This document shows positions 133 to 11,360 of a stretch of 11,544 bases of DNA, piece by piece (position 1 is the stretch's first letter; the number at the start of each line of letters is the position of its first letter). The translations under genes were made by a program, and so were the position numbers. The DNA is taken from assembly GCA_002716355.1 (NCBI GenBank), contig PBAU01000001.1, positions 10,573 through 22,116 on the forward strand, in the 5' to 3' direction. The stretch is from a bacterium (lineage in GTDB: Bacteria > UBP7 > UBA6624). The notes beneath the pieces are model-generated. The model searched no databases. It worked only from the letters and a program-made list of their open reading frames with translations, and was not told where the DNA came from.

Positions 133-984
133 TTAACCTACCTTCCATCTATTGTGCAACCAAAGCCATTGGCTAGGCTCCTCCATTATAAGTTCAACAA
201 TTTCATTTGAATACTGCTGCACTGCCTCTTCTTGGCTAAGTTTACCAAGTTTTTTAGAAGGTCTAATAACCCATTCAAAAGAACCCCATTCAACCCTCCT
301 GACTATAGAAACCACTGCAGAACAATCAAACTTAAGCGAAAGGTTGTAAGCTCCCGTAAACGCCCTTGCTGGCCTTCCCATAAAGTCTACAACTATACCG
401 TTAGCAGAGTGTTGGTCAGAAACCAAGCCAGCAACAGCACCCTTTTTCATAATTTTAGAAATCTTAGCAAGGTCACGCCAATGTCTTGTTAGGTTTAGCA
501 TGCCGAATTTAGATCTTGTTTCAAGTGCAAGATCATTAAGGAGGCTATTGCTTTGCGCTCTTCCAACTGCAATTAAAGGTATATCAAGGTTCTTTTTAAA
601 AAACGCTCCACAGATTTCCCAATTACCATAATGTGCAGTTACCATGATGCCGCCTTTTTTAATTGATTTGATATTTTTGAAACCACTTTTTTTAAGCTTT
701 ATCAATTTAAAAAAATCTTTACCATGAAGATGCATATAAAAAATTTCAACCATTGTTAAAGCAAGATTGTAAAAACTTTTTTTCAGAATTTTTTCACATT
801 CAGATATAGAAACATCAACGAAAACCAGTCTCATTCTCTGGATGGCTCTTTTTCTTGGGCTGATCATCAGGGGCCATAATAAAGAAAAATAAAGTTTACC
901 TAAAGTTTCACCATGTTGAAATGGCACTACTCTTACCAAAAACATAGCAAGGTAAAGTAAAAACTTTTCAAATATTCTTCTCAA
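133..984 (-). CDS. lpxL: LpxL/HtrB-family lipid A late acyltransferase
   Basis: A 283-residue protein of the lysophospholipid acyltransferase (LpxL/LpxM) family, which transfers a secondary acyl chain from acyl-ACP to KDO2-lipid IVA at the inner membrane. Visible marks are a hydrophobic N-terminal anchor at about residues 8-22, the catalytic H-x4-E motif in AHYGNWE (His118, Glu123), a GLVSDQHS segment at 186-193, and a C-terminal PSQWLWLHNRWK (270-281) typical of the family. Its length is slightly below the usual 290-310. The start is a TTG: the only upstream in-frame codons are ATC and then the TAA of the preceding gene, and the next ATG (codon 14) would remove half of the membrane anchor. 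Downstream lies kdsA, another LPS gene. Which acyl position it serves cannot be read from the sequence, so the symbol is a family-level assignment. Confidence 0.88.
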   Translation of the reverse strand: MRRIFEKFLLYLAMFLVRVVPFQHGETLGKLYFSLLWPLMISPRKRAIQRMRLVFVDVSISECEKILKKSFYNLALTMVEIFYMHLHGKDFFKLIKLKKSGFKNIKSIKKGGIMVTAHYGNWEICGAFFKKNLDIPLIAVGRAQSNSLLNDLALETRSKFGMLNLTRHWRDLAKISKIMKKGAVAGLVSDQHSANGIVVDFMGRPARAFTGAYNLSLKFDCSAVVSIVRRVEWGSFEWVIRPSKKLGKLSQEEAVQQYSNEIVELIMEEPSQWLWLHNRWKVG

Positions 985-996
985 GATTTAAACCTT
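982..996 (-). promoter_or_regulatory. Shine-Dalgarno and TTG start of the acyltransferase gene
   Basis: On the minus strand an AAGG element (plus-strand 993-996) sits 8 bases before TTG at 984. It lies inside the last codons of the dehydrogenase gene, whose TAA (988-990) is in phase with the TTG. This spacing supports TTG as the start, since the in-phase stop leaves no other usual start codon upstream. Confidence 0.5.
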
Positions 997-1947
997 GATT
1001 GGCGTAAGTGGGTCAATACCTTGCAAAACATTAATTACATTTTGAGCTGCTAAATGAGCCATGCCATTCCTGGAATTCACAGAAGCACTGCCGGTATGGG
1101 GGGCCAGAACAACTTGATCCATACTTAACAATGGGTTATTTTTTTCTGGGGGCTCTGGGTCATACACATCTAAGCCAGCACCTAAAATCTCCCCTTCAAC
1201 AAGAGCCCTATATAAATCAGCCTCATCCACTAAACCACCTCTTGCAGCATTAATTAATATTGAATTTTTTTTCATCTTTTTAAAAGCTGCGTAATTCATA
1301 ATTTTTTTTGTAGACTCCAAAAGAGGCGCATGCAGGCTTAAAAAATCACTCTCAGCCAAAAGATCATCAAAATCAACTCTTCTTGCATTTAACTCATTTT
1401 CACCTTCCTCCCATGGGAAAGCATCAGTATAAAGAATCTTCATATTAAAACCTTTTGCTCTTTTCGCTACCGCCCTGCCAATTCTGCCAGCACCAAAAAT
1501 ACCAAGTGTTGCTTCCCATAGATCCTGCCCAATCAGCAAGCTGGGGGACCAGCCTTTATACTGGCCTTTTTCAGTCATTTTATGACCCTCGACAATTCGC
1601 CTAGCACAAGACATCATCAATGCCCAGGTGAGATCCGCAGTTGCTTCAGTTAAAACATCAGGTGTATTTGTACAGATAACATCATGTTCACAACACGCTT
1701 TCACATCTATATTATCGAAACCAACAGCATAATTTGCAACAATTTTCAAATTAGGAGCATTTTTTAACAAATCAGTATCCACCTTATCTGTTAACAAGGT
1801 AATTAGAGCATCTGCATCCTGCACCTTGCTTAAAAGCAAATCTCTTGGTATCACGCAATCATCCTCATGTATCCAAACATCATGAGATGCATTGCGAATC
1901 ATCTGTTCGGCATCACCAGGCAACTTTCTAGTTATAACAACTTTCAT
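988..1947 (-). CDS. D-2-hydroxyacid dehydrogenase, glyoxylate/hydroxypyruvate reductase type
   Basis: A 319-residue NAD(P)-dependent D-isomer-specific 2-hydroxyacid dehydrogenase, full length for the family. The substrate loop NYAVGFDNID is at 72-81, the Rossmann dinucleotide motif GAGRIG at 152-157, and the catalytic set is complete: Arg236 in NAARGGLVDE, Glu265 in DVYDPEPP, and His284 in APHTGSAS. The sequence looks most like the glyoxylate reductase/D-glycerate dehydrogenase branch, which interconverts glyoxylate and glycolate or hydroxypyruvate and D-glycerate in the cytoplasm. The acidic Asp175 after the second strand (LYTD) suggests a preference for NADH, which is an inference. Its ATG overlaps the metG stop as ATGA, so translation is probably coupled. 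Exact substrate is unproven; 2-ketogluconate reductase or another subfamily remains possible. Confidence 0.9.
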   Translation of the reverse strand: MKVVITRKLPGDAEQMIRNASHDVWIHEDDCVIPRDLLLSKVQDADALITLLTDKVDTDLLKNAPNLKIVANYAVGFDNIDVKACCEHDVICTNTPDVLTEATADLTWALMMSCARRIVEGHKMTEKGQYKGWSPSLLIGQDLWEATLGIFGAGRIGRAVAKRAKGFNMKILYTDAFPWEEGENELNARRVDFDDLLAESDFLSLHAPLLESTKKIMNYAAFKKMKKNSILINAARGGLVDEADLYRALVEGEILGAGLDVYDPEPPEKNNPLLSMDQVVLAPHTGSASVNSRNGMAHLAAQNVINVLQGIDPLTPIKV

Positions 1948-3821
1948 TTCACTATAGTACCATTCGAAACTTGTTTTTGAGGGTGTAAAGCAATTGGACC
2001 ACCATCATCAGCACAAAGAATCATTCCTTCACTCATCTCGCCTCGAAGCTTTACGGGTTCAAGGTTTGCAACAACAACAACTTGTTTTCCAATCATTTCA
2101 TCTACTGTATAGTGGCCAGCTAATCCAGCAACTATCTGCCTGACTGAATCCTCTCCAAGATCTACCTTAAACACTAATAGCCTGTCTGCATCCGGGTGTT
2201 TTTTTCCTGAAGTAATTGTGCCTATTTTTAATTTTGTTTTAAAAAAACTTTTAATATCAATATTTTCTTTTTTTTGATTCATTTTGCTCTCCTTGTGATT
2301 CTTTTCCTTGATGTCAATTCTTGGAAATAATTGTTTGAATGATTTTAAATCCTTAACGGGTGGAACAAATTCATTATCATCAGCTGGCATGGTTGGTTGA
2401 GAATTAAAAATCTTCAAAATGCTATCAGAGCTTGCGGGAAGAAGGGGGTTTAGCATATTTCCGATTGTCAAAATGGCATCACACAGGTGGAAAAAAACAT
2501 CATTTACCTCTTGGTGTTTTTTATTCTTGTAAAGGTTCCATGGTTGTTTTTCATCTAAATATTTATGTCCCCAGCGAACCAAATCTAAAATTGCCTCCAT
2601 TGAATTTCGAGGATTTAAGGATTCAAATCCGGCATGCCACTCTTTTATACAATTTGTTTTTTTGCTTAAGTATGTTTTGCTGATGCTCCCAGCAGGCTTG
2701 ACTGAACAGTCAAGATATCTATCAATCATTGATAAAGACCTGTGTATTAGGTTGCCTATCTCATTCGCTAAAAATGAATTGTAAAAATTAAAAAACTGTT
2801 CAACTGTAACAGCACCATCGCTGCCAAATGGAACAGAATAAAGACAAAAAAATCTCAAAGAATCCTCTTCATTTAATCCAGTTTTTCTTGTAATTTTTAA
2901 AGGGTCTATGACATTTCCAAGACTTTTTGACATTTTCGTATTTCCAACAGTTAAATAACCGTGAACAAACATGCCTTTAGGTAATGGTAGTTCTGCGGCC
3001 ATCAACAAAGCCGGCCACACACCTGCATGAAACCATAGTATATCTTTTGCAAGAAGGTGAAAAGAGTTTTTCCATCTATCTTCCCATTGGTCATCTTTAT
3101 CCCAGTTTACACCTGATAAATATGTTGTCAAAGCATCAAACCAAACATAAAAAACATTTTCTGCATCATCAGGTATTGGAACTGCGAAGTTCAATCTTGA
3201 CCTAGGTCTAGAAATGCATAAATCTTCAACTTCACCATTCAACCTTGCCAGAATTTCTTTCCGCCTACCAGGTGGATTGATGAAATTAGGATTATCTTGA
3301 ATAAAACTTGCTACTTTTGGAGCCCATTCTGAAAGTGGAAAAAACCAAGCGTCTTCTTTAACCTTCTCCAAATCATCACCTGTATCTGGATCTAAATAAT
3401 TGCTTTTTTTTGCTTCTAACTCTGGAACAAACCTGGCCTCACGAACATTGTACCAACCCTCGTAAATGCCTTTTTTAACTTGATTTTTTGCTTTTAGTTT
3501 TAAAAACAATCTTTTAACATCCTGATGATGCTCTGGGTCATCTGTGTGAATGAATTGATGATCATCGATATTCAAATGTCGCATAAGTTCATGCCATTTT
3601 GGACGCATTTTTTTTACAAAATCTTCCGCTTTTAACTTTTCAACCATAGCTATTTTTTCAATTTTTTCAGCATGTTCATCAGTGCCTGTTGTCATTAAAA
3701 CCTCTTGTCCATTGAGCCTAATGTATCTACAAAAAACATCAGCAAAAATACTTGTGTATGCATGGCCAAGGTGAGGGTTGGCGTTTGGATAAAAAATAGG
3801 TGTTGTGATATGTCTAAACAT
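1944..3821 (-). CDS. metG: Methionyl-tRNA synthetase with C-terminal tRNA-binding domain
   Basis: A 625-residue class I aminoacyl-tRNA synthetase that charges tRNA-Met. The HIGH-type motif is PHLGH (16-20) and the KMSKS motif is exact at 296-300. The anticodon-binding helical domain includes DEKQPW at 423-428. The connective 'knuckle' (about 116-160) starts YEGWYNVRE and has no cysteine, so it should not bind zinc; this resembles alphaproteobacterial enzymes rather than E. coli MetG. A lysine-rich linker (505-520) leads to an EMAPII/Trbp111-like OB-fold domain (about 521-625) with KIGTI, HPDADRLL and ANLEPVKLRGEMSEGM. The core alone is about 513 residues, the usual length of MetG lacking this domain. 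The gene overlaps the DUF3084 gene upstream (TAATG) and the dehydrogenase gene downstream (ATGA). Confidence 0.97.
   Translation of the reverse strand: MFRHITTPIFYPNANPHLGHAYTSIFADVFCRYIRLNGQEVLMTTGTDEHAEKIEKIAMVEKLKAEDFVKKMRPKWHELMRHLNIDDHQFIHTDDPEHHQDVKRLFLKLKAKNQVKKGIYEGWYNVREARFVPELEAKKSNYLDPDTGDDLEKVKEDAWFFPLSEWAPKVASFIQDNPNFINPPGRRKEILARLNGEVEDLCISRPRSRLNFAVPIPDDAENVFYVWFDALTTYLSGVNWDKDDQWEDRWKNSFHLLAKDILWFHAGVWPALLMAAELPLPKGMFVHGYLTVGNTKMSKSLGNVIDPLKITRKTGLNEEDSLRFFCLYSVPFGSDGAVTVEQFFNFYNSFLANEIGNLIHRSLSMIDRYLDCSVKPAGSISKTYLSKKTNCIKEWHAGFESLNPRNSMEAILDLVRWGHKYLDEKQPWNLYKNKKHQEVNDVFFHLCDAILTIGNMLNPLLPASSDSILKIFNSQPTMPADDNEFVPPVKDLKSFKQLFPRIDIKEKNHKESKMNQKKENIDIKSFFKTKLKIGTITSGKKHPDADRLLVFKVDLGEDSVRQIVAGLAGHYTVDEMIGKQVVVVANLEPVKLRGEMSEGMILCADDGGPIALHPQKQVSNGTIVK
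2280..2294 (-). promoter_or_regulatory. Possible internal ribosome-binding site and ATG for a separate tRNA-binding domain within metG
   Basis: On the minus strand an AAGGAG element (plus-strand 2289-2294) lies 6 bases before the in-frame ATG for Met514 of MetG (2280-2282). It is one of the best Shine-Dalgarno matches in the window, better than that of most true starts here. Initiation here would give a 112-residue protein consisting of the tRNA-binding domain alone, close to the size of free-standing Trbp111-type proteins. The element falls in a lysine/glutamate-rich linker whose codons (AAG GAG) can form it by chance. Confidence 0.35.
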
Positions 3822-5110
3822 TATTGACCCTCAATGATAATTTCTATTTTAGACATAGATTCAAAATTGTAAATATCTTTAGTTATTCGAACTGATGCCA
3901 AAGCACCGTTTTCAAAACTAACCATCTCTTCGGCCCTGTTTGTAAGCTTCCATGTTGGGTAAAAAACTCTTTTTTGAGTTTTCACATCTGGAAAGATACC
4001 TTTAGATTCCGCAATCTCCTCAATCAAGCTAATCAAAGACTGTAAAAATAAATAATTATTCTGAACAAGAGCGGTATCCTCAAAGAACCGTTCTGCCAGA
4101 ATCTCCCCTTCTTTAAAAATGATGCCCGAAGGAACCCATTCAAATATTACTTTCACTGCATCTCCCACAAAAACATTTGAGAGAACGGATGTTCTTAAAA
4201 AATAATTTCCAGATTTTTTTGAACCTAAAGCTCTTGCTGCAAGCGTATCTGCGGTTTCAAATGCAAAACTAACACCCAGGCTTTCAATGTCAGAAATCAT
4301 TTTTTGAAAACTGCTTTTTAAATAATCGCCTAAAAGCAAAGGGTCCAAATCCGCAGGGACCATTAATCTTTTCAATTCTTGACCCTTAACCAAAACCAAA
4401 GTTCCCTCAGAAGCTCGAACCTCTGCATCATTCAATGCAGCTGTTAGCTGCAGTAAATCCTTTTGAAGATCATCTAATTGATTATTTTTTTCAAGTAATT
4501 CATTTTCTGTTTTTTGCAGATTGATACTTAATTCTGAAATGCTGTCATTCAATTTTTTTTCTTCCTCTTTTAAAGTCAGAACCTGATTTTCTTTTTCAGA
4601 AAGTTCCTGGGTTAAAGAAAGTCCTTGCTCTTTTAAAGTTTGGATTTGTGCATTTAAAACTTCCGCCTGTTTAGATGAGTTCATTATCTCAATTTCTAAC
4701 TGCTCTTTCAGGATCGTGAGATCTTGTATCTGGTTGTTACTATCATTTAAATCTATTTCTAATTTTCCAAAATTTATTTCAAGATCTTTATAGGAAATCT
4801 GCAAATCTGAATATGTATCCTCTATACCCTGAAGCTGCTCTGAACTTTCTGCAAGCTCCTTTTTAATTGCCTGAATCCGAAAAACAGCATCCTGAAAATC
4901 ACTACTTACAAAGGATAACAATCCGTAAATAAAGGCTGAAACCAAAAAACCAATCATGCCTGCCCATATTGCAGATGCATACTTGGGCCTTAGGCCTAGC
5001 AATCTTTTTTTACTTTTTGAATATCTTCTACCTGCTATATCTCCCAAATAAGCAATAATCCCTCCAGAAAGCAAGAGGAAAAGAACATTGATTAAACCAT
5101 CATTAAACAT
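3821..5110 (-). CDS. DUF3084-like membrane-anchored coiled-coil protein
   Basis: A 429-residue protein of unknown function. The N-terminus has one membrane segment at about 5-24, a cytoplasmic-type basic stretch containing GRRYSKSKKRLLGLRPKYAS (27-46), and a second membrane segment at about 47-69. A long heptad-rich coiled coil follows (about 75-232), then a C-terminal globular domain (about 235-429) containing FKEGEILAE (332-340). The pairing of a short GDxxGRR..GLRPK segment between two helices, a coiled coil, and a C-terminal domain with a 'GE+LA' motif matches my memory of the DUF3084 family, best known from cyanobacteria and Thermus/Deinococcus. Function is not known. It sits 12 bases downstream of the enoyl-CoA hydratase gene with no visible Shine-Dalgarno, only a T-rich leader, and its stop overlaps the metG start (TAATG). 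The start is kept because the N-terminal helix is part of the family pattern. Confidence 0.75.
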   Translation of the reverse strand: MFNDGLINVLFLLLSGGIIAYLGDIAGRRYSKSKKRLLGLRPKYASAIWAGMIGFLVSAFIYGLLSFVSSDFQDAVFRIQAIKKELAESSEQLQGIEDTYSDLQISYKDLEINFGKLEIDLNDSNNQIQDLTILKEQLEIEIMNSSKQAEVLNAQIQTLKEQGLSLTQELSEKENQVLTLKEEEKKLNDSISELSINLQKTENELLEKNNQLDDLQKDLLQLTAALNDAEVRASEGTLVLVKGQELKRLMVPADLDPLLLGDYLKSSFQKMISDIESLGVSFAFETADTLAARALGSKKSGNYFLRTSVLSNVFVGDAVKVIFEWVPSGIIFKEGEILAERFFEDTALVQNNYLFLQSLISLIEEIAESKGIFPDVKTQKRVFYPTWKLTNRAEEMVSFENGALASVRITKDIYNFESMSKIEIIIEGQ

Positions 5111-5122
5111 AATTAAAAAAAA

Positions 5123-5905
5123 CTATTTTTTTTGATCTGAGTTGTTATTTTGAAAATCAGTAATAGTTTTTTTTGTTGTTTCTAAAGACCAAGATTCTGC
5201 AAATAAATCTGCCTCTTTGATCAATGCATCTTTCTGGGACATCTCCAAATGCAGGCAAAGAGATTGTTTGGCTAACGCAATTGTTTGCTTGTTTTTAACA
5301 AGATACGGTTTTAAAAATTCTTTTGCATCAGCGATTAATTCTTTTGGTCTAGATACCTTTTGTATCAAACCCATTTCAAATGCTTCATCAGCTCTGAACA
5401 AACGACCACTTAAAACCAAATCCAAAGCTTTGGTTCTCCCAAGAAGCTCGACTAACCTTTGGCCACCCCCCCATCCAGGGATAAGACCCAAATTAATTTC
5501 AGTTTGACCAAATTTTGCCCTTGAACTAGCAATTCTAAAATCACAACAAAGCGCAAGCTCCAAGCCTCCGCCAAAACACATTCCATTTACTGCCGCTAAA
5601 GTTACAAGAGGTACGGATTCCATTAAGCTCCATATGCTATTCCCTTTTTGAGCTAAACGAGCTGCACCGGCTGTATCCTGGGACATAAGTTCAGGAAGGT
5701 ATGCCCCCGCTGAAAACATTGGCCCCCGGCCAGTTATTATGATTGCTTTTAAACTATCATTTTTAGAAGCAAGCAAAGCGCACTCTTTAAAGCTATCTGA
5801 AAAAGCATCTGACAAATTATTTAATGGATTCCCTTTGGTGTTAATCGTGATGATCAAACAGTCATCGTCTTGCTTGGCTTCAAAATAATCAGATTGATAA
5901 AACAT
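5123..5905 (-). CDS. Enoyl-CoA hydratase/isomerase family protein (crotonase fold)
   Basis: A 260-residue crotonase-superfamily enzyme, normal length for the family. These enzymes act on acyl-CoA thioesters, typically hydrating trans-2-enoyl-CoA in beta-oxidation. The oxyanion-hole segments SAGA (65-68) and GMCFGGGLELALCCDFR (108-124) are present, and both catalytic glutamates of true hydratases are retained: Glu116 in GGLEL and Glu136 in FGQTEINLGLIPGWGGGQR. One difference is Tyr69 where most hydratases have Asp in SAGAD. The short lysine/asparagine-rich tail is not diagnostic. The ATG overlaps the stop of the HerA-like gene (TGATG), so translation is probably coupled. Nothing in the context reveals the acyl substrate. 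Hydratase activity is likely from the two glutamates; an isomerase or another crotonase activity is possible. Confidence 0.92.
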   Translation of the reverse strand: MFYQSDYFEAKQDDDCLIITINTKGNPLNNLSDAFSDSFKECALLASKNDSLKAIIITGRGPMFSAGAYLPELMSQDTAGAARLAQKGNSIWSLMESVPLVTLAAVNGMCFGGGLELALCCDFRIASSRAKFGQTEINLGLIPGWGGGQRLVELLGRTKALDLVLSGRLFRADEAFEMGLIQKVSRPKELIADAKEFLKPYLVKNKQTIALAKQSLCLHLEMSQKDALIKEADLFAESWSLETTKKTITDFQNNNSDQKK

Positions 5906-7686
5906 CAGAACTTAAACTTAACGTCTCCTTTCTTTTTCCAGTCTGCTGCTTTCGGGGCTCTTTTCCTACCCCTGTCAATTTCTTCTTGTGACTGCAAATA
6001 CATATCTCCGGGCACGCATGGAGGATATGGAAACTGCATAATTACAGGCTGACTATAACGAGCATGCTTCAAAAGCAAAGTTCCCTTCGGGAATATGGCC
6101 ATTTTTTTCTTAACCTCATCCGGAAGGTATGAGTATTCTGGAAGTCCTAATTCAGTTGGCCCAGATCTTCCGTAGCATATAGTTGAACTATTATCTGTGA
6201 CCTGCTTGTCGATCATTGAAGCAAACTGTTCAGCACCGAAAAAAGTAAGACCTAATGATCTTCCTCTAGCAGTAGCGTGAATGATAGACTCCTTCAGTGT
6301 TGTGCTTTTATCTGCTGGAGCAAATTTATTCAACTCATCAACAAACACAATAATATTGTCAAGGCCCTCCTCTTCTGTTTTCATTTCAACCAACTCAAAC
6401 AATCTCTTTAACACCCTTTCAAAAACCATCTGCTGGCCTCTATCGTTTAAGGCCTGAATATCAATAACGTATATATCTCCTGTTTTAAATTCATCTAATG
6501 GTATATCTTGTGGTTTTTCTGGAATATCTCTCGAATTAACCAAACCTTTAAAAAGCTCTGGGAGCGTAACTAAATTTTGAACAAGTTTAAAAAAGGTGGT
6601 TCTCTTATGTCCGTGCCAATGCTCCCTGTCTCTCATTACCCTTCGTTCTTCAACCAAAAAATCAACAAGATCTGGAAACTCTTTAATCGTTTCGTCTTTA
6701 TCAACTATGTCAAGCATATCTTCATATGCTGCTTGAACATTGTCATCCCAATCATCCTCATCAAAAAGCTCTGGTAGGTATTTTCTTAACTCAGGTATAT
6801 CCCAAACAAAATATTCAACAGAACCATCTTGCCTTAAGCTGTTAACTTTTGATGAGGTGGTTGAAGAGTATGGCGCAAAAATACGCAATTGATCAAATGG
6901 TTCAGGAGGAACATTTAGTTCTTTGTATATTTCTCTGTAAAATTCACCTTGTGAACTTTTTTCCTGAAGTTCAGGATTAGCCTTATCTAAAAACAATAAA
7001 TCCTTACCTTTAACATTAAATAAAACTACGCCTATTCTTTTTTTCTTATACTCTTGATTTCTTTGGAAAAAAGTTTGTACTGATTTAAGCATAAACTCAA
7101 CCAAACTTGTTTTGGTAGCCAAACCTGAAATTCCACTAATATTAAAGTGTGCTCCCTCTGGCCCTAAAAGAAATTCAATATCGACATAAATAGGTGTAAG
7201 TTGTCCATCTCCATTTTTAATAACACCTATAGGTACCCCTCTATCCTCAATATAGCCCTCCATATTAAAAGCCCTTCTGACTCCAGCAGGGTTAGCATAA
7301 AAAATATTAGCTCGAGTAACGGGCCTTGCTTTATCATCAGTTGATCCAATGATATTTGCTTTTGCAACAAGAACCTCTGAAACATCTGTTGGCAGTGACT
7401 GATCTGGTTTTCCAAAATCATGTGATATATAGTCAGAAAGAAAGTTTGGCATATCCATAGTTGAACGCAAATCAACAACAGTTCCAAATGTTATATGTCC
7501 ATCATCTCTAACAGCAGCAACAATGTTCCCTAATTCAAGATTTTGCTCCTTTCTAGAAAGCCAAAAATGAAAATAAGAAGAGGTGTTTGGATGTTTTTCA
7601 GTGCTAGCACCCTTTCCTACAAAACCCCACTCAAGGTTTACATATTCATTAAATTTTTCTTCTGCAAAATGAAAATTCTTGTTCAT
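5905..7686 (-). CDS. HerA-like DNA-translocase ATPase (HerA/FtsK superfamily)
   Basis: A 593-residue ATPase. Residues about 15-130 look like the N-terminal HAS-barrel (ELGNIVAAVRDDGHITFGTVVDL at 51-73). The P-loop region is ISGISGLATKTS (183-194): Lys192 and Thr193 fit Walker A, but Thr191 replaces the usual last glycine. A large middle insert (about 230-400) includes an acidic stretch at 307-332. Walker B is IIVFVDE (445-451, Asp450 and Glu451), and ATARGRSLG (471-479) supplies a likely arginine finger. HerA proteins form hexameric rings that pump double-stranded DNA and drive the partner nuclease NurA. The gene directly before this one encodes a NurA-like protein, 18 bases away, which supports that pairing. 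A Shine-Dalgarno AAGGA lies 7 bases before the ATG and fixes the start. The P-loop change is probably a subfamily feature, as all other motifs are intact. Confidence 0.85.
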   Translation of the reverse strand: MNKNFHFAEEKFNEYVNLEWGFVGKGASTEKHPNTSSYFHFWLSRKEQNLELGNIVAAVRDDGHITFGTVVDLRSTMDMPNFLSDYISHDFGKPDQSLPTDVSEVLVAKANIIGSTDDKARPVTRANIFYANPAGVRRAFNMEGYIEDRGVPIGVIKNGDGQLTPIYVDIEFLLGPEGAHFNISGISGLATKTSLVEFMLKSVQTFFQRNQEYKKKRIGVVLFNVKGKDLLFLDKANPELQEKSSQGEFYREIYKELNVPPEPFDQLRIFAPYSSTTSSKVNSLRQDGSVEYFVWDIPELRKYLPELFDEDDWDDNVQAAYEDMLDIVDKDETIKEFPDLVDFLVEERRVMRDREHWHGHKRTTFFKLVQNLVTLPELFKGLVNSRDIPEKPQDIPLDEFKTGDIYVIDIQALNDRGQQMVFERVLKRLFELVEMKTEEEGLDNIIVFVDELNKFAPADKSTTLKESIIHATARGRSLGLTFFGAEQFASMIDKQVTDNSSTICYGRSGPTELGLPEYSYLPDEVKKKMAIFPKGTLLLKHARYSQPVIMQFPYPPCVPGDMYLQSQEEIDRGRKRAPKAADWKKKGDVKFKF

Positions 7687-7704
7687 AATACCATCCTTAC
7701 TATT

Positions 7705-8697
7705 TTAGGTTACTATTGCTCCGTGCAAAAACCATTTAATTGTTTCAGCCTTAGGTAAATGGTTTGTTAAAAAATCAGTACAAACTTTTAAAGGGTGAAC
7801 TAATCTTTCCCATTTTGGGCTTGGATAAGAAACAGGATTTCTTAAACTGAAAACCAATCTCGAAACCTCATCCACGCTTCCGGGGTCAAGAGGCATTCCT
7901 TCGTATACTTCAGGTCTGATTAAACCAAAATTAGCCGAATGTGCACGAGGTTGCCTAATTCTCAAAAACCAACTTGTAATTTCATCTTTCTGTGGGGTTG
8001 AATATGAAAACAATGCACTTCTTTCAGAATAACCGAGGCTAAGAATATTACGTTGTGTCTCTGGTGTAAAAAATAAAGGATGATTGTCTTTACATAAACC
8101 AACAGCACAGGGGATAGGTTTTGGAAGATGTGCTAAAGATCCATCTACTAAAATTTTTTCTTTATATTTTTTCTCCTCTGCCCATTCGTAAAGATGATTG
8201 GACTCGAGCTTGTGACGTTGCTGTCTGGCCCTCATGACTGCAGCATACCTTTGCGCACCAAAATAACCTGTTTTCTCACCAGTGTCTAAAAAACCTTTTG
8301 GAAGATCGGATCCCAACAAAGACTTAGAAACTAATGCAAACTCCTCAATTCTGGGTTGCCCCCACATTTCAAAATTTCCATTTCTAAAACCAATAATTAA
8401 ACTTGCAATAATTGAATAATGAACTGTTACCGGATTGCTCCCAAAATCAAAAGTTCCTATTAAAAATGTTTTTTGAACTCCATCAGTAAACCATCTAATA
8501 GCTAGATCTTGATTTTCAGATTTTGCAATTTTTAAATCCTGAATCATCCCTCCCTCATGAACAGTTGTAACGTCTCTCAAATCCAATCGCTGTGGAGCAA
8601 AAGAGGCCTCTTCTATTTGATCTGCTGAGGCAATTTCACCACCACTCTCAACTAGGAAATTCTTAATATTAGCAAGTGTATCTGTTAGAAATGTCAT
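7705..8697 (-). CDS. nurA: NurA-like nuclease, partner of the HerA-like ATPase
   Basis: A 330-residue protein with a NurA-domain pattern. There is a first acidic motif RWFTDGVQK (Asp72), a second motif KILVDGSLAHLPKPIPCAVGLCK (181-203; Asp185, Lys203), and a C-terminal NPVSYPSPKWERLVHP (287-301) resembling the 'YP.PL..A' region of NurA. NurA is a Mn-dependent nuclease with an RNase H-like fold that resects DNA ends inside a complex with HerA; length and motif order fit. The gene lies between a Fe-S nuclease gene (stop 6 bases upstream, in phase) and the HerA-like gene. AAAGGA directly abuts the ATG, too close for a good Shine-Dalgarno, so translation may depend on coupling to the upstream gene. 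There is no alternative start codon nearby. The call comes from motifs and context rather than close overall similarity. Confidence 0.75.
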   Translation of the reverse strand: MTFLTDTLANIKNFLVESGGEIASADQIEEASFAPQRLDLRDVTTVHEGGMIQDLKIAKSENQDLAIRWFTDGVQKTFLIGTFDFGSNPVTVHYSIIASLIIGFRNGNFEMWGQPRIEEFALVSKSLLGSDLPKGFLDTGEKTGYFGAQRYAAVMRARQQRHKLESNHLYEWAEEKKYKEKILVDGSLAHLPKPIPCAVGLCKDNHPLFFTPETQRNILSLGYSERSALFSYSTPQKDEITSWFLRIRQPRAHSANFGLIRPEVYEGMPLDPGSVDEVSRLVFSLRNPVSYPSPKWERLVHPLKVCTDFLTNHLPKAETIKWFLHGAIVT

Positions 8698-8703
8698 TCC
8701 TTT

Positions 8704-10050
8704 CTATTGTAATCTAGCAATGTGCGGCAATTTTTCCCCAGTTTCAACAATTGCACCATTTGCAATAATTGAATACGAATCATTCACAAACCCTTCCAGA
8801 TTACCTGAATAATCTGAAAGCCTGACATCAACATCAACACAAAAAACATCATTACCTTCCTCTAGGGAGCCTAGGATTTTCCCGGAACCTTCCCAACCTT
8901 TTACAACAACCTCTTCATTATCCTGAGTTTTAATCAAAATTGCCCCCGGTCTATTACCTGATGGTTTTTGCACATTGAGAACATTACCTTTTATTGATTT
9001 AGAGCGACCTTGTTTTTGCCAAGGTGTATCTTGAATATACTGATGATAAGAACCGCACCAGGGTTTTGCATCACACCATTTACAGTTATTTTCAGATGGC
9101 CTTGCTTCAAATAAAGACTCTGGTGATCCTGATTGCTGCTTAATTGCAGTAGCTGTATCGTTAAGGGTTAAAATCCAGCCATTAATAGACTCTTGATCGA
9201 GTTCCAGCTTTTTGATTTGTTGTGACCCAGTGTACCAAAACTCTACAGCGATAGGCATGTTGTCAAATCTTTCAGAAGCCAAATGTGCATACAGCCATCC
9301 TTGCAATTCGTGATTAAAATCAATTTCATTTTTCTTTGCCTTCCCAGTTTTGTAATCGACAATTTTGACATTATTATTTTCATCAACAAAAATCGCATCA
9401 ATAATTCCGCCCAATATGCCATCTTCTGAAAAAATACATGATTCGGTTTCAGTCGGGCCAAGTAACCGAACTGAATCCTTGTCCATTTTCCCATCAGTCA
9501 TATTATGAATAACCCAAATAATTTGATCCAAAATATCATCTCTTTTAGAGTCATCCCATTTGCCTTTTTTTCGTGCAGATGTCTCAAAGCGAGCTTTATA
9601 TTTATCCCAATAATCCATCAAAAGTGCCTTGATGTATGAGGATGGTTTTGCTTTGTCTAAGTCACATTGAAACAAAGCCTCTAAAACCGCATGAGCGACA
9701 CTGCCACGGTATAAAGCGGGGCTAACCATAGTTGGAATTTTTTTCTCGTAAGAAAAATAATACTGTTTTGGACACAGCAAATATTGGCTTGCTTTAGAAA
9801 AAGACAAACTGCCTTTTTGCCAGCGTTTCCGTGTTGGTAATTTTGGTATATCAACCCTTTCTGCTAATATTTCTGGCAATGGGTTGTTTTTAACGAACCA
9901 AGACTCCACATGCAAGATACCCGTTTCATCTGGGCCATCTACAACCTTTTTAGGAAACCATTTTTTAAAATTATCGTCTATTCGTACAATATAAACAGCT
10001 TTTTCTGTTTCTCTTTCGGTGTGCCACATTCCTTTTTGCTGTTTTTTCAT
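8704..10050 (-). CDS. PD-(D/E)XK nuclease with Cas4/AddB-type Fe-S cluster motif
   Basis: A 448-residue RecB/Cas4-family nuclease. The order is: Cys93 in LLCPKQYYFSYE; motif I GSVAHAVLE (116-124, His120); GGIIDAIFVD with Asp218; DYKTGKAK (232-239) with Asp232 and Lys234; the QxxxY motif QGWLY (250-254); then CKWCDAKPWC (Cys323, 326, 332). One early cysteine plus C-x2-C-x5-C downstream is the 4Fe-4S pattern of Cas4 and AddB. About 85 N-terminal residues precede the nuclease core and are not recognised. Residues about 350-430 after the cluster look beta-rich and may form an OB-like DNA-binding domain, which is an inference. There is no helicase domain, so it is not AddB itself. It leads the minus-strand operon and precedes the NurA-like gene. 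Met8 is an alternative start; neither has a well-spaced Shine-Dalgarno. Confidence 0.88.
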   Translation of the reverse strand: MKKQQKGMWHTERETEKAVYIVRIDDNFKKWFPKKVVDGPDETGILHVESWFVKNNPLPEILAERVDIPKLPTRKRWQKGSLSFSKASQYLLCPKQYYFSYEKKIPTMVSPALYRGSVAHAVLEALFQCDLDKAKPSSYIKALLMDYWDKYKARFETSARKKGKWDDSKRDDILDQIIWVIHNMTDGKMDKDSVRLLGPTETESCIFSEDGILGGIIDAIFVDENNNVKIVDYKTGKAKKNEIDFNHELQGWLYAHLASERFDNMPIAVEFWYTGSQQIKKLELDQESINGWILTLNDTATAIKQQSGSPESLFEARPSENNCKWCDAKPWCGSYHQYIQDTPWQKQGRSKSIKGNVLNVQKPSGNRPGAILIKTQDNEEVVVKGWEGSGKILGSLEEGNDVFCVDVDVRLSDYSGNLEGFVNDSYSIIANGAIVETGEKLPHIARLQ

Positions 10051-10075: not shown

Positions 10076-10579
10076 ATGAAAACTCATACACGTTTAGGTT
10101 TTTCATTTCTGACTCTATTGGTGCTAATTTGGTTGATTTTTTCATCATTTGATAACAAACATCTATACTTTGGGTTACTAGTAATTATGCTTAGTTACAA
10201 CTGGTGCAAAAAGATATTATTTATTTCTACTTCTAAAAATAAATTTTATATTTTTGATTTAAACTGGATTGCTTTAGCTGAGTATATGCTTTGGCTTTGT
10301 TGGCAAATTTTCATTGCAAACATCCATGTTGCAAAAATAATACTATCAAATAAAAACGATTTAGATCCACAGGTCATGATTTTTAAATCGGATTTAAAAC
10401 ACCCATTGGCAAAGTCGCTACTAGCTAACTCAATAACATTGACACCTGGAACAATTACATTGAATGTTTTTGCTGACAACTTTGAAGTTCACGCGCTAAA
10501 TGAAGAATTCACCCACCTGATAAAAGTTGGAGAGCTAAATAAAAAAATAGCTAAAATTTTTAAAGTTAAAAATGATTGA
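10076..10579 (+). CDS. mrpE: Mrp/Mnh cation/proton antiporter subunit E
   Basis: A 167-residue membrane protein of the MrpE (MnhE/PhaE) family, a structural subunit of the multi-subunit Na+/H+ antiporter in the inner membrane. Hydrophobic segments lie at about 9-23 and 29-51 and again at 63-90. They are followed by the family signature SLLANSITLTPGTITLNVF (114-132) and a cytoplasmic C-terminal domain. The length is typical. It is the first gene of the plus-strand antiporter operon and overlaps the subunit F gene by 8 bases. The gap before its ATG carries no recognisable Shine-Dalgarno. Confidence 0.95.
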   Translation: MKTHTRLGFSFLTLLVLIWLIFSSFDNKHLYFGLLVIMLSYNWCKKILFISTSKNKFYIFDLNWIALAEYMLWLCWQIFIANIHVAKIILSNKNDLDPQVMIFKSDLKHPLAKSLLANSITLTPGTITLNVFADNFEVHALNEEFTHLIKVGELNKKIAKIFKVKND

Positions 10580-10829
10580 ACTAATTATTATTATCATTTT
10601 GGCTGTATTGCCGTTAAAACTTCTTGTAAAGGGTTCATCACCCTATGAAAGATTAATTGGCTTAAATGTTTTCAGCAACAAGGTCCTGGTTTTAATCCTG
10701 TTGCTGGGTTTAAGTTATGGGAAGATCGGTTTTTTTATCGATGTAGCAATAGGTTATGCATTGTTAAATTTCGTAGGGGTTGTAGTTCTGACAAGGTTTT
10801 TAAGAATGAGGGAGGAAAGCAATGGTTGA
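10572..10829 (+). CDS. mrpF: Mrp/Mnh cation/proton antiporter subunit F
   Basis: An 85-residue protein with three membrane segments (about 2-19, 36-51, 53-76), the normal size and topology of MrpF. The family pattern is visible in SSPYERLIGLNVFSNKVLVL (22-41) and in IDVAIGYALLNFVGVVVLTRFL (56-77). Asn32 occupies the place of the aspartate found in many MrpF proteins of Bacillus type; I believe Asn is usual in a proteobacterial subgroup, so this is not taken as a defect. The start overlaps the end of the subunit E gene by 8 bases and the stop overlaps the subunit G gene by 8 bases, indicating coupled translation. Confidence 0.93.
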   Translation: MIELIIIIILAVLPLKLLVKGSSPYERLIGLNVFSNKVLVLILLLGLSYGKIGFFIDVAIGYALLNFVGVVVLTRFLRMREESNG

Positions 10830-11121
10830 GTTATTGTCCGGCATCACCCTTTGGTTAGGTTTATTTTTTCTAGCAATCGGCAGCATTGGCATAATTAAAA
10901 TGCCAGACATTTATTGCAAGCTGCACGCTAGTGGAAAGTGTGATACATTGGGTATATTTCTTGCTTTTTCCGGCATATCGATGCAAGCAGATAACTGGCA
11001 TCAAATTTTAAAAATATTTCTTATGCTGATTTTTATTGCTATTGCCAATCCAACATCAGCTCATCTTGTTGGCAGAACCGCTAAGCATTCAAATATAAAA
11101 TTTTGGAAAAAATCAAAATGA
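10822..11121 (+). CDS. mrpG: Mrp/Mnh cation/proton antiporter subunit G
   Basis: A 99-residue membrane protein of the MrpG (MnhG/PhaG) family. The signatures are GSIGIIKMPDIYCKLHASGKCDTLG (about 20-44) and IANPTSAHLVGRTA (about 73-86). There are three hydrophobic segments, at about 4-25, 42-56 and 61-80. A strong Shine-Dalgarno GGAGG (10811-10815) lies 6 bases before the ATG and fixes the start. It overlaps the subunit F gene by 8 bases, and its TGA overlaps the next gene as ATGA. Confidence 0.95.
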   Translation: MVELLSGITLWLGLFFLAIGSIGIIKMPDIYCKLHASGKCDTLGIFLAFSGISMQADNWHQILKIFLMLIFIAIANPTSAHLVGRTAKHSNIKFWKKSK

Positions 11122-11360
11122 TTTTTGAACTAAATGTTTTTCTATATTTGGTGTTATTTGCACTTGCAATAGTAGCATTAAAAAATAAAGATCTTGTGGT
11201 TTCGGCAATATCACTGGGTGGTTTCTCTTTTTGCATGGCAATACTATATTCCTCTTTGGGCGCTGTGGATGTTGGATTAACCGAAGCGGTAATAGGTGCA
11301 GGTGTCAATAGTGTAATTGTTGTAGCTGCAATATGGCATCTAAGGACAAGCAAACAATGA
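11118..11360 (+). CDS. mbhD: DUF4040/MbhD-like antiporter subunit (separate MrpA C-terminal segment)
   Basis: An 80-residue membrane protein matching the DUF4040 domain, known as MbhD of membrane-bound hydrogenases and as part of the C-terminal region of MrpA. The marks are a first helix FLYLVLFALAIVALKNKDL, then SAISLGGFSFCMAILYSSLGAVDVGLTEAVIGAG, with the conserved acidic residue in LTEA, and a third helix ending in WHLR. I chose ATG at 11118 because it forms an ATGA overlap with the subunit G stop. A TTG at 11103 would add five residues but is a poorer start. The TGA overlaps the following ATG (11357) in the same way. Being separate from MrpA, it points to an Mbh-like subunit arrangement. 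Confidence 0.85.
   Translation: MIFELNVFLYLVLFALAIVALKNKDLVVSAISLGGFSFCMAILYSSLGAVDVGLTEAVIGAGVNSVIVVAAIWHLRTSKQ

Follow-up and report, generated by a model that had tools for sequence, protein, structure and literature searches.

Our study indicates that two adjacent genes in a bacterium of the candidate phylum UBP7 very probably encode a divergent NurA–HerA complex, of the kind found in Deinococcus and Thermus, that processes DNA ends, and that the Fe-S nuclease encoded beside them is a separate, linked enzyme. Homology, motifs, synteny, purifying selection and the presence of an AddAB-like pair were observed directly. The window, meaning the whole stretch of 11 544 nucleotides that was analysed (G000:C1:10573-22116), belongs to a UBP7 MAG of 1.26 Mb that is 86.6 % complete. 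The nearest named record is bacterium UBP7_UBA7824, with NurA and HerA proteins 96–98 % identical to those of the window, and comparison within the phylum was based upon three genomes, all of them incomplete MAGs: the source (G000), a member of a second genus (G001) and G002.

A conserved chromosomal gene run

The genes of the run, numbered by position in the window, are the following:

133–984, minus strand: lipid A biosynthesis acyltransferase (LpxL-type), syntenic neighbour (family search and synteny)
988–1947, minus strand: D-isomer 2-hydroxyacid dehydrogenase, syntenic neighbour (family search and synteny)
1944–3821, minus strand: methionyl-tRNA synthetase (metG), syntenic neighbour (named from sequence; synteny and identities)
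3821–5110, minus strand: DUF3084 gene, syntenic neighbour (family search and synteny)
5123–5905, minus strand: enoyl-CoA hydratase family gene (Pfam ECH_1, 3.9e-47; synteny in G001 and UBA7824)
5905–7686, minus strand: predicted HerA-like hexameric DNA-translocase ATPase, 593 aa (phmmer, family profile, PADLOC and dN/dS)
7705–8697, minus strand: predicted NurA-like RNase-H-fold nuclease, 330 aa (family profiles and predicted fold)
8704–10050, minus strand: predicted PD-(D/E)XK nuclease of 448 aa that carries four Fe-S-type cysteines and is extended at both termini (Pfam PDDEXK_1, E=3.7e-30)

The last three are intact minus-strand ORFs, separated by gaps of 6 bp (Fe-S nuclease/NurA) and 18 bp (NurA/HerA), and an ORF check found the coordinates first proposed for them to be correct. 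Comparison with UBA7824 gave identities of 98.3 % for HerA, 96.4 % for NurA and 88.8 % for the Fe-S nuclease, with dN/dS values of 0.010, 0.024 and 0.056, respectively, placing all three under purifying selection. As they are both intact and conserved between species, we regard the three ORFs as real genes.

The enoyl-CoA hydratase gene comes next in the HerA run, overlapping the HerA stop by one base, and the order HerA, enoyl-CoA hydratase, DUF3084, MetG, dehydrogenase and LpxL was identical in all three UBP7 genomes. The NurA gene adjoined herA in each of them. Between the two genera HerA retained 80 % identity, compared with 60 % for NurA, 39 % for the Fe-S nuclease and 35–59 % for the remaining run members. 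This synteny with metG and an LPS acyltransferase gene speaks for a core function on the chromosome rather than a defence island, and the original prediction of such a role is supported by a housekeeping setting that is kept across the phylum. On the plus strand, window positions 10076–11360 carry Mrp-type Na+/H+ antiporter genes (MnhE, MnhG and MbhD-like) divergent from the Fe-S nuclease gene; in G001 a different transporter-like gene sits divergently beside the orthologue.

The HerA-like ATPase and its NurA-like partner

The HerA-like identity held up despite the lack of a Pfam family. The single window protein matched the HerA of D. radiodurans (drHerA; 7F6D) by phmmer at E=2e-42, and a HerA family profile aligned to the same protein over nearly its full length, the N-terminal region included (E=2.9e-166). 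Both ATPase motifs were intact when examined in an alignment of 23 relatives (A1):

7105–7134, minus strand: HerA Walker A, GISGLATKTS, residues 185–194 (near-invariant columns in A1)
6334–6354, minus strand: HerA Walker B, I-I-V-F-V-D450-E451, residues 445–451 (D450 and E451 invariant in A1)

The key Walker A residues, G185 and K192-T-S194, were invariant or nearly so, and Walker B reads IIVFVDELNK in its sequence context. Pfam, with its HAS-barrel and DUF87 models, assigned no family to the window HerA, and because most of the relatives tested also failed or fell below the cut-off, we consider that the Pfam HerA models miss this branch. NCBIfam and PHROGs profile scans of HerA and NurA returned nothing or weak matches only, and PADLOC recognized the window protein as HerA weakly, at 2e-7. 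Phylogenetic inference, from a tree that did not include drHerA, grouped the UBP7 HerAs with those of loci L039–L042, with good support, and then with L043/L044, on a branch distinct from that of the HerAs of Thermus and cyanobacterium type.

The NurA-like identity was likewise sustained, through family profiles, predicted fold and retained residues. On its own, the window protein matched neither Pfam NurA (PF09376) nor, significantly, any known NurA in the PDB. The Pfam model appears too narrow for this branch, as it recognizes L052 and L056, two HerA-adjacent members of the alignment, but not eight others. A profile of 19 proteins (A2), comprising the window NurA and those found beside HerA elsewhere, reached D. 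radiodurans NurA (drNurA; 7F6D) at 9e-27 and T. maritima TM1739 (TmNurA; 1ZUP) at 8e-25, and a stricter profile that left out the Pfam-NurA members (A3) reached them at 3e-5 and 0.009. A structural model of moderate quality (pLDDT 71), built from the window, UBA7824 and viral-contig sequences, matched five NurAs (drNurA, TmNurA, SsoNurA, TkoNurA and PfNurA) with Z-scores from 19.7 to 11.9. The rows for drNurA (19.7), TmNurA (17.7) and SsoNurA (15.6) stand clear of those for Argonaute and EndoV (Z about 10–11), and Foldseek gave 8.8e-11 and 2.3e-8 for its top two matches. TmNurA shares the fold, but at 15–18 % identity in structural alignments. The motifs FTDG and VDGSL are present, and three residues stand out in the alignment:

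8482–8484, minus strand: NurA D72, corresponding to the drNurA catalytic residue D53
8143–8145, minus strand: NurA D185, second acidic motif (VDGSL)
8089–8091, minus strand: NurA K203, corresponding to the drNurA catalytic residue K201

The D53A mutant of drNurA is inactive (PMC9960219).

A HerA–NurA pair is not new for bacteria, having been characterized in D. radiodurans (PMC9960219) and described in Thermus (PMC5448004). The window pair shares with the Deinococcus complex a near-full-length HerA alignment by profile, the NurA fold, equivalents of D53 and K201, and the pairing of motor and nuclease. However, the pore arginines R495 and R552 of drHerA, both of which are required for resection (PMC9960219), are replaced by A458 and L515, and R309 of drNurA by K295, and the Deinococcus mechanism may therefore not apply in every detail. 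The pore positions were also variable in other relatives, and we treat these arginines as a Deinococcus-type detail, not as a hallmark of the family at large. Unlike D. radiodurans, the window has an Fe-S nuclease gene adjacent to the pair. The Thermus nurA-hepA genes are likewise a two-gene tandem within a genus-wide metabolic run and without SbcCD, but their neighbours are malic enzyme and gcvT, and no Fe-S nuclease gene is described there (PMC5448004). The archaeal systems of Sulfolobus, Pyrococcus and Thermococcus share the motor and nuclease pair, with NurA Z-scores of 15.6 (2YGK), 13.4 (9X1M) and 12.6 (3TAZ); they differ in very low sequence similarity and in working with Mre11–Rad50, neither of which is linked in the window.

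By analogy with these systems, HerA would assemble as a six-subunit ring, taking up double-stranded DNA at a free end and driving it into a dimer of NurA (a presumed 6 : 2 assembly); the dimer would cut the strands on arrival. Such activity need not extend to every member of the family. In the nearest non-UBP7 HerA relatives whose NurA could be read, the D72 position is occupied by G, G and R, respectively, and the K203 position is changed too:

L039:7612-8661, L040:2494-3474 and L041:9187-10257: NurA-like partners without the catalytic Asp and Lys positions (alignment)

HerA in these loci keeps its ATPase motifs while the NurA catalytic positions are lost, which suggests that the motor has an inactive NurA for a partner. 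The loss of the catalytic Asp in the three closest relatives implies that not every member of the NurA family is active as a nuclease.

The Fe-S nuclease as a linked neighbour

The third protein was confirmed as a Cas4/AddB-type Fe-S nuclease by its PDDEXK_1 match, its RecB-family motifs (H120, D218, D232-x-K234 and Q250 of QxxxY) and four cysteines. The motif residues and cysteines were invariant across four UBP7 rows:

9772–9774, minus strand: C93, first Fe-S cysteine
9349–9357, minus strand: PD-(D/E)XK active-site motif D232-Y-K234 (motif alignment)
9055–9084, minus strand: C323-x2-C326-x5-C332, C-terminal Fe-S cysteines

The protein differs from known Cas4 and AddB enzymes in its extra regions (about 80 residues N-terminal and about 110 C-terminal, conserved in UBP7), in that no helicase domain was found in it, and in scoring below the curated Cas4 cut-off (TIGR00372, 3.6e-9; 36.7 bits against a cut-off of 65). 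We do not class it as Cas4 proper, given this score and the lack of cas genes, such as cas1 and cas2, among the window proteins that could be identified. A structural model based on two sequences reached a pLDDT of 32. In the sampled genomes, no full-length relatives were found outside UBP7; weak domain-level matches occurred in two other genomes, neither of them HerA-positive. Single-protein scans of viral contigs with the Fe-S nuclease and with the window HerA found no relatives.

The original prediction treated the trio as one module, and a three-component machine would have the Fe-S nuclease bind HerA–NurA in the place held elsewhere by Mre11–Rad50. Consistent with this are the tight spacing of the genes in one run, their linkage, in every UBP7 genome compared, on one contig and one strand, and the SbcCD carried by several other HerA–NurA loci while SbcD went undetected in the phylum. 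However, the genes are adjacent in one UBP7 genus only: in G001 the Fe-S nuclease lies on the contig and strand of NurA but about 7.7 kb upstream, separated from it by five genes on the opposite strand, most of them respiratory in type. No close homologue was present at the other HerA–NurA loci or genomes examined, and many such loci have neither SbcCD nor an Fe-S nuclease gene. Furthermore, the identity of the Fe-S nuclease between genera lies in the range of its unrelated run neighbours, whereas that of HerA is 80 %. The trio therefore did not stand as a single module, and we judge a three-component machine improbable. That UBP7 recruited the nuclease to HerA–NurA in Mre11–Rad50's place seems quite unlikely to us; were it true, one ring motor would serve two chemically different nucleases. 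We favour instead a separate Cas4/AddB-like enzyme, encoded first in the run and genetically linked, which probably acts on DNA ends or flaps too. It is a linked neighbour confined to UBP7.

Repair background, distribution and cellular role

The source lineage had been proposed to lack RecBCD and AddAB, which would make the pair its main end-resection enzyme. This proposal was rejected, as G000 encodes a tandem AddB-like (859 aa) and AddA-like (1046 aa) pair in which the helicase motifs and both nuclease motifs, including Walker, DEFQDT and DxK, are intact. The pair was also found in G002 and in G001, where AddA is cut by a contig end. We use the label AddAB-like because no protein reaches the curated AddA or AddB cut-off. 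The G000 AddB-like protein (L079:3906-6485) ends CHWCQKFGRSKFW and is missing the last Fe-S cysteine, which is present in the G001 protein (CKWCDWAEAC). RecJ-like genes were present too, with an ORF of 453 aa in G000 (L103:1483-2844) and G002 (L104:1480-2841), where the RecJ profile match extends beyond the stop, and one of 505 aa in G001 (L105:1477-2994). No Mre11 or Rad50 gene occurs in the window, in agreement with the original prediction, and SbcD was also undetected in the three UBP7 genomes, incomplete as these are; an AAA_23 search for SbcC gave weak partial matches only.

A weak trend does point towards the main resection role. PDDEXK_1, a crude proxy for AddAB or RecB, was missing slightly more often from HerA-positive genomes (5/25) than from HerA-negative ones (19/265), at a Fisher P value of 0.04 uncorrected for kinship. 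However, it was present in the other 20 HerA-positive genomes, and with an AddAB-like pair in every UBP7 genome compared we consider this role highly unlikely. The Deinococcus–Thermus phylum, by contrast, is without RecBCD and AddAB (PMC9960219). As the UBP7 genome has an AddAB-like enzyme, AddAB absence is not what keeps NurA–HerA here.

HerA relatives were found in 25 of 290 sampled genomes, comprising the three UBP7 genomes and 22 of 287 non-UBP7 bacteria. Among the non-UBP7 bacterial loci examined, 14 of 18 had a recognizable NurA-like gene next to HerA, as did three of four plasmid or phage records; in all five viral contigs such a gene lay close upstream of HerA. SbcC and/or SbcD was adjacent in four of the same 18 loci and in three of the four plasmid or phage records. 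A four-gene order of NurA, HerA, an HSP90/HATPase-like protein (about 520 aa) and a radical-SAM/B12-binding-like protein (about 470–650 aa) was repeated in bacterial and viral contigs (L046, L047, L087, L089, L090 and L091), with Pfam naming the last two genes in L047, L089 and L091. In L047 and L089 neither the HATPase nor the radical-SAM protein had a PADLOC match; the L089 HerA matched mad8. A literature search found no description of this arrangement, possibly a mobile or defence cassette that has yet to be described.

The in vivo role of bacterial NurA–HerA is disputed (PMC9960219, PMC12977600). Double knockout in D. radiodurans raised UV and mitomycin resistance (PMC9960219), and work on Thermococcus makes the case for an antiviral function rather than resection (PMC12977600). 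HerA also teams with effectors in the defence systems SIR2-HerA and HerA-DUF4297 (PMC12977600, PMC11291478). An antiphage system in which HerA–NurA degrades invading DNA would fit these precedents, the weak PADLOC matches to HerA and mad8, and the occurrence of the sister HerA branch in prophages and viral contigs. TdpAB is a phosphorothioate-dependent defence system, and the predicted window NurA resembles its chain G (8WFD, 8WET; Z 14.6), albeit at 11 % identity and with no modification genes recognized in the window. However, of the window genes that were identified, none beside the UBP7 pair is a defence gene, the pair lies within the same housekeeping run in every UBP7 genome, and HerA shows the lowest dN/dS of the three. 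We therefore regard an antiphage system as unlikely. The NurA–HerA pair would instead be a vertically kept chromosomal function, most likely processing or destroying broken DNA ends beside the AddAB-like enzyme.

In summary, our study places a NurA–HerA pair missed by Pfam in an uncultured phylum, within a conserved housekeeping gene run. The very strong constraint on HerA, seen alongside NurA partners that have lost the catalytic Asp in the closest relatives, raises the question of whether the motor may have a role beyond feeding a nuclease.
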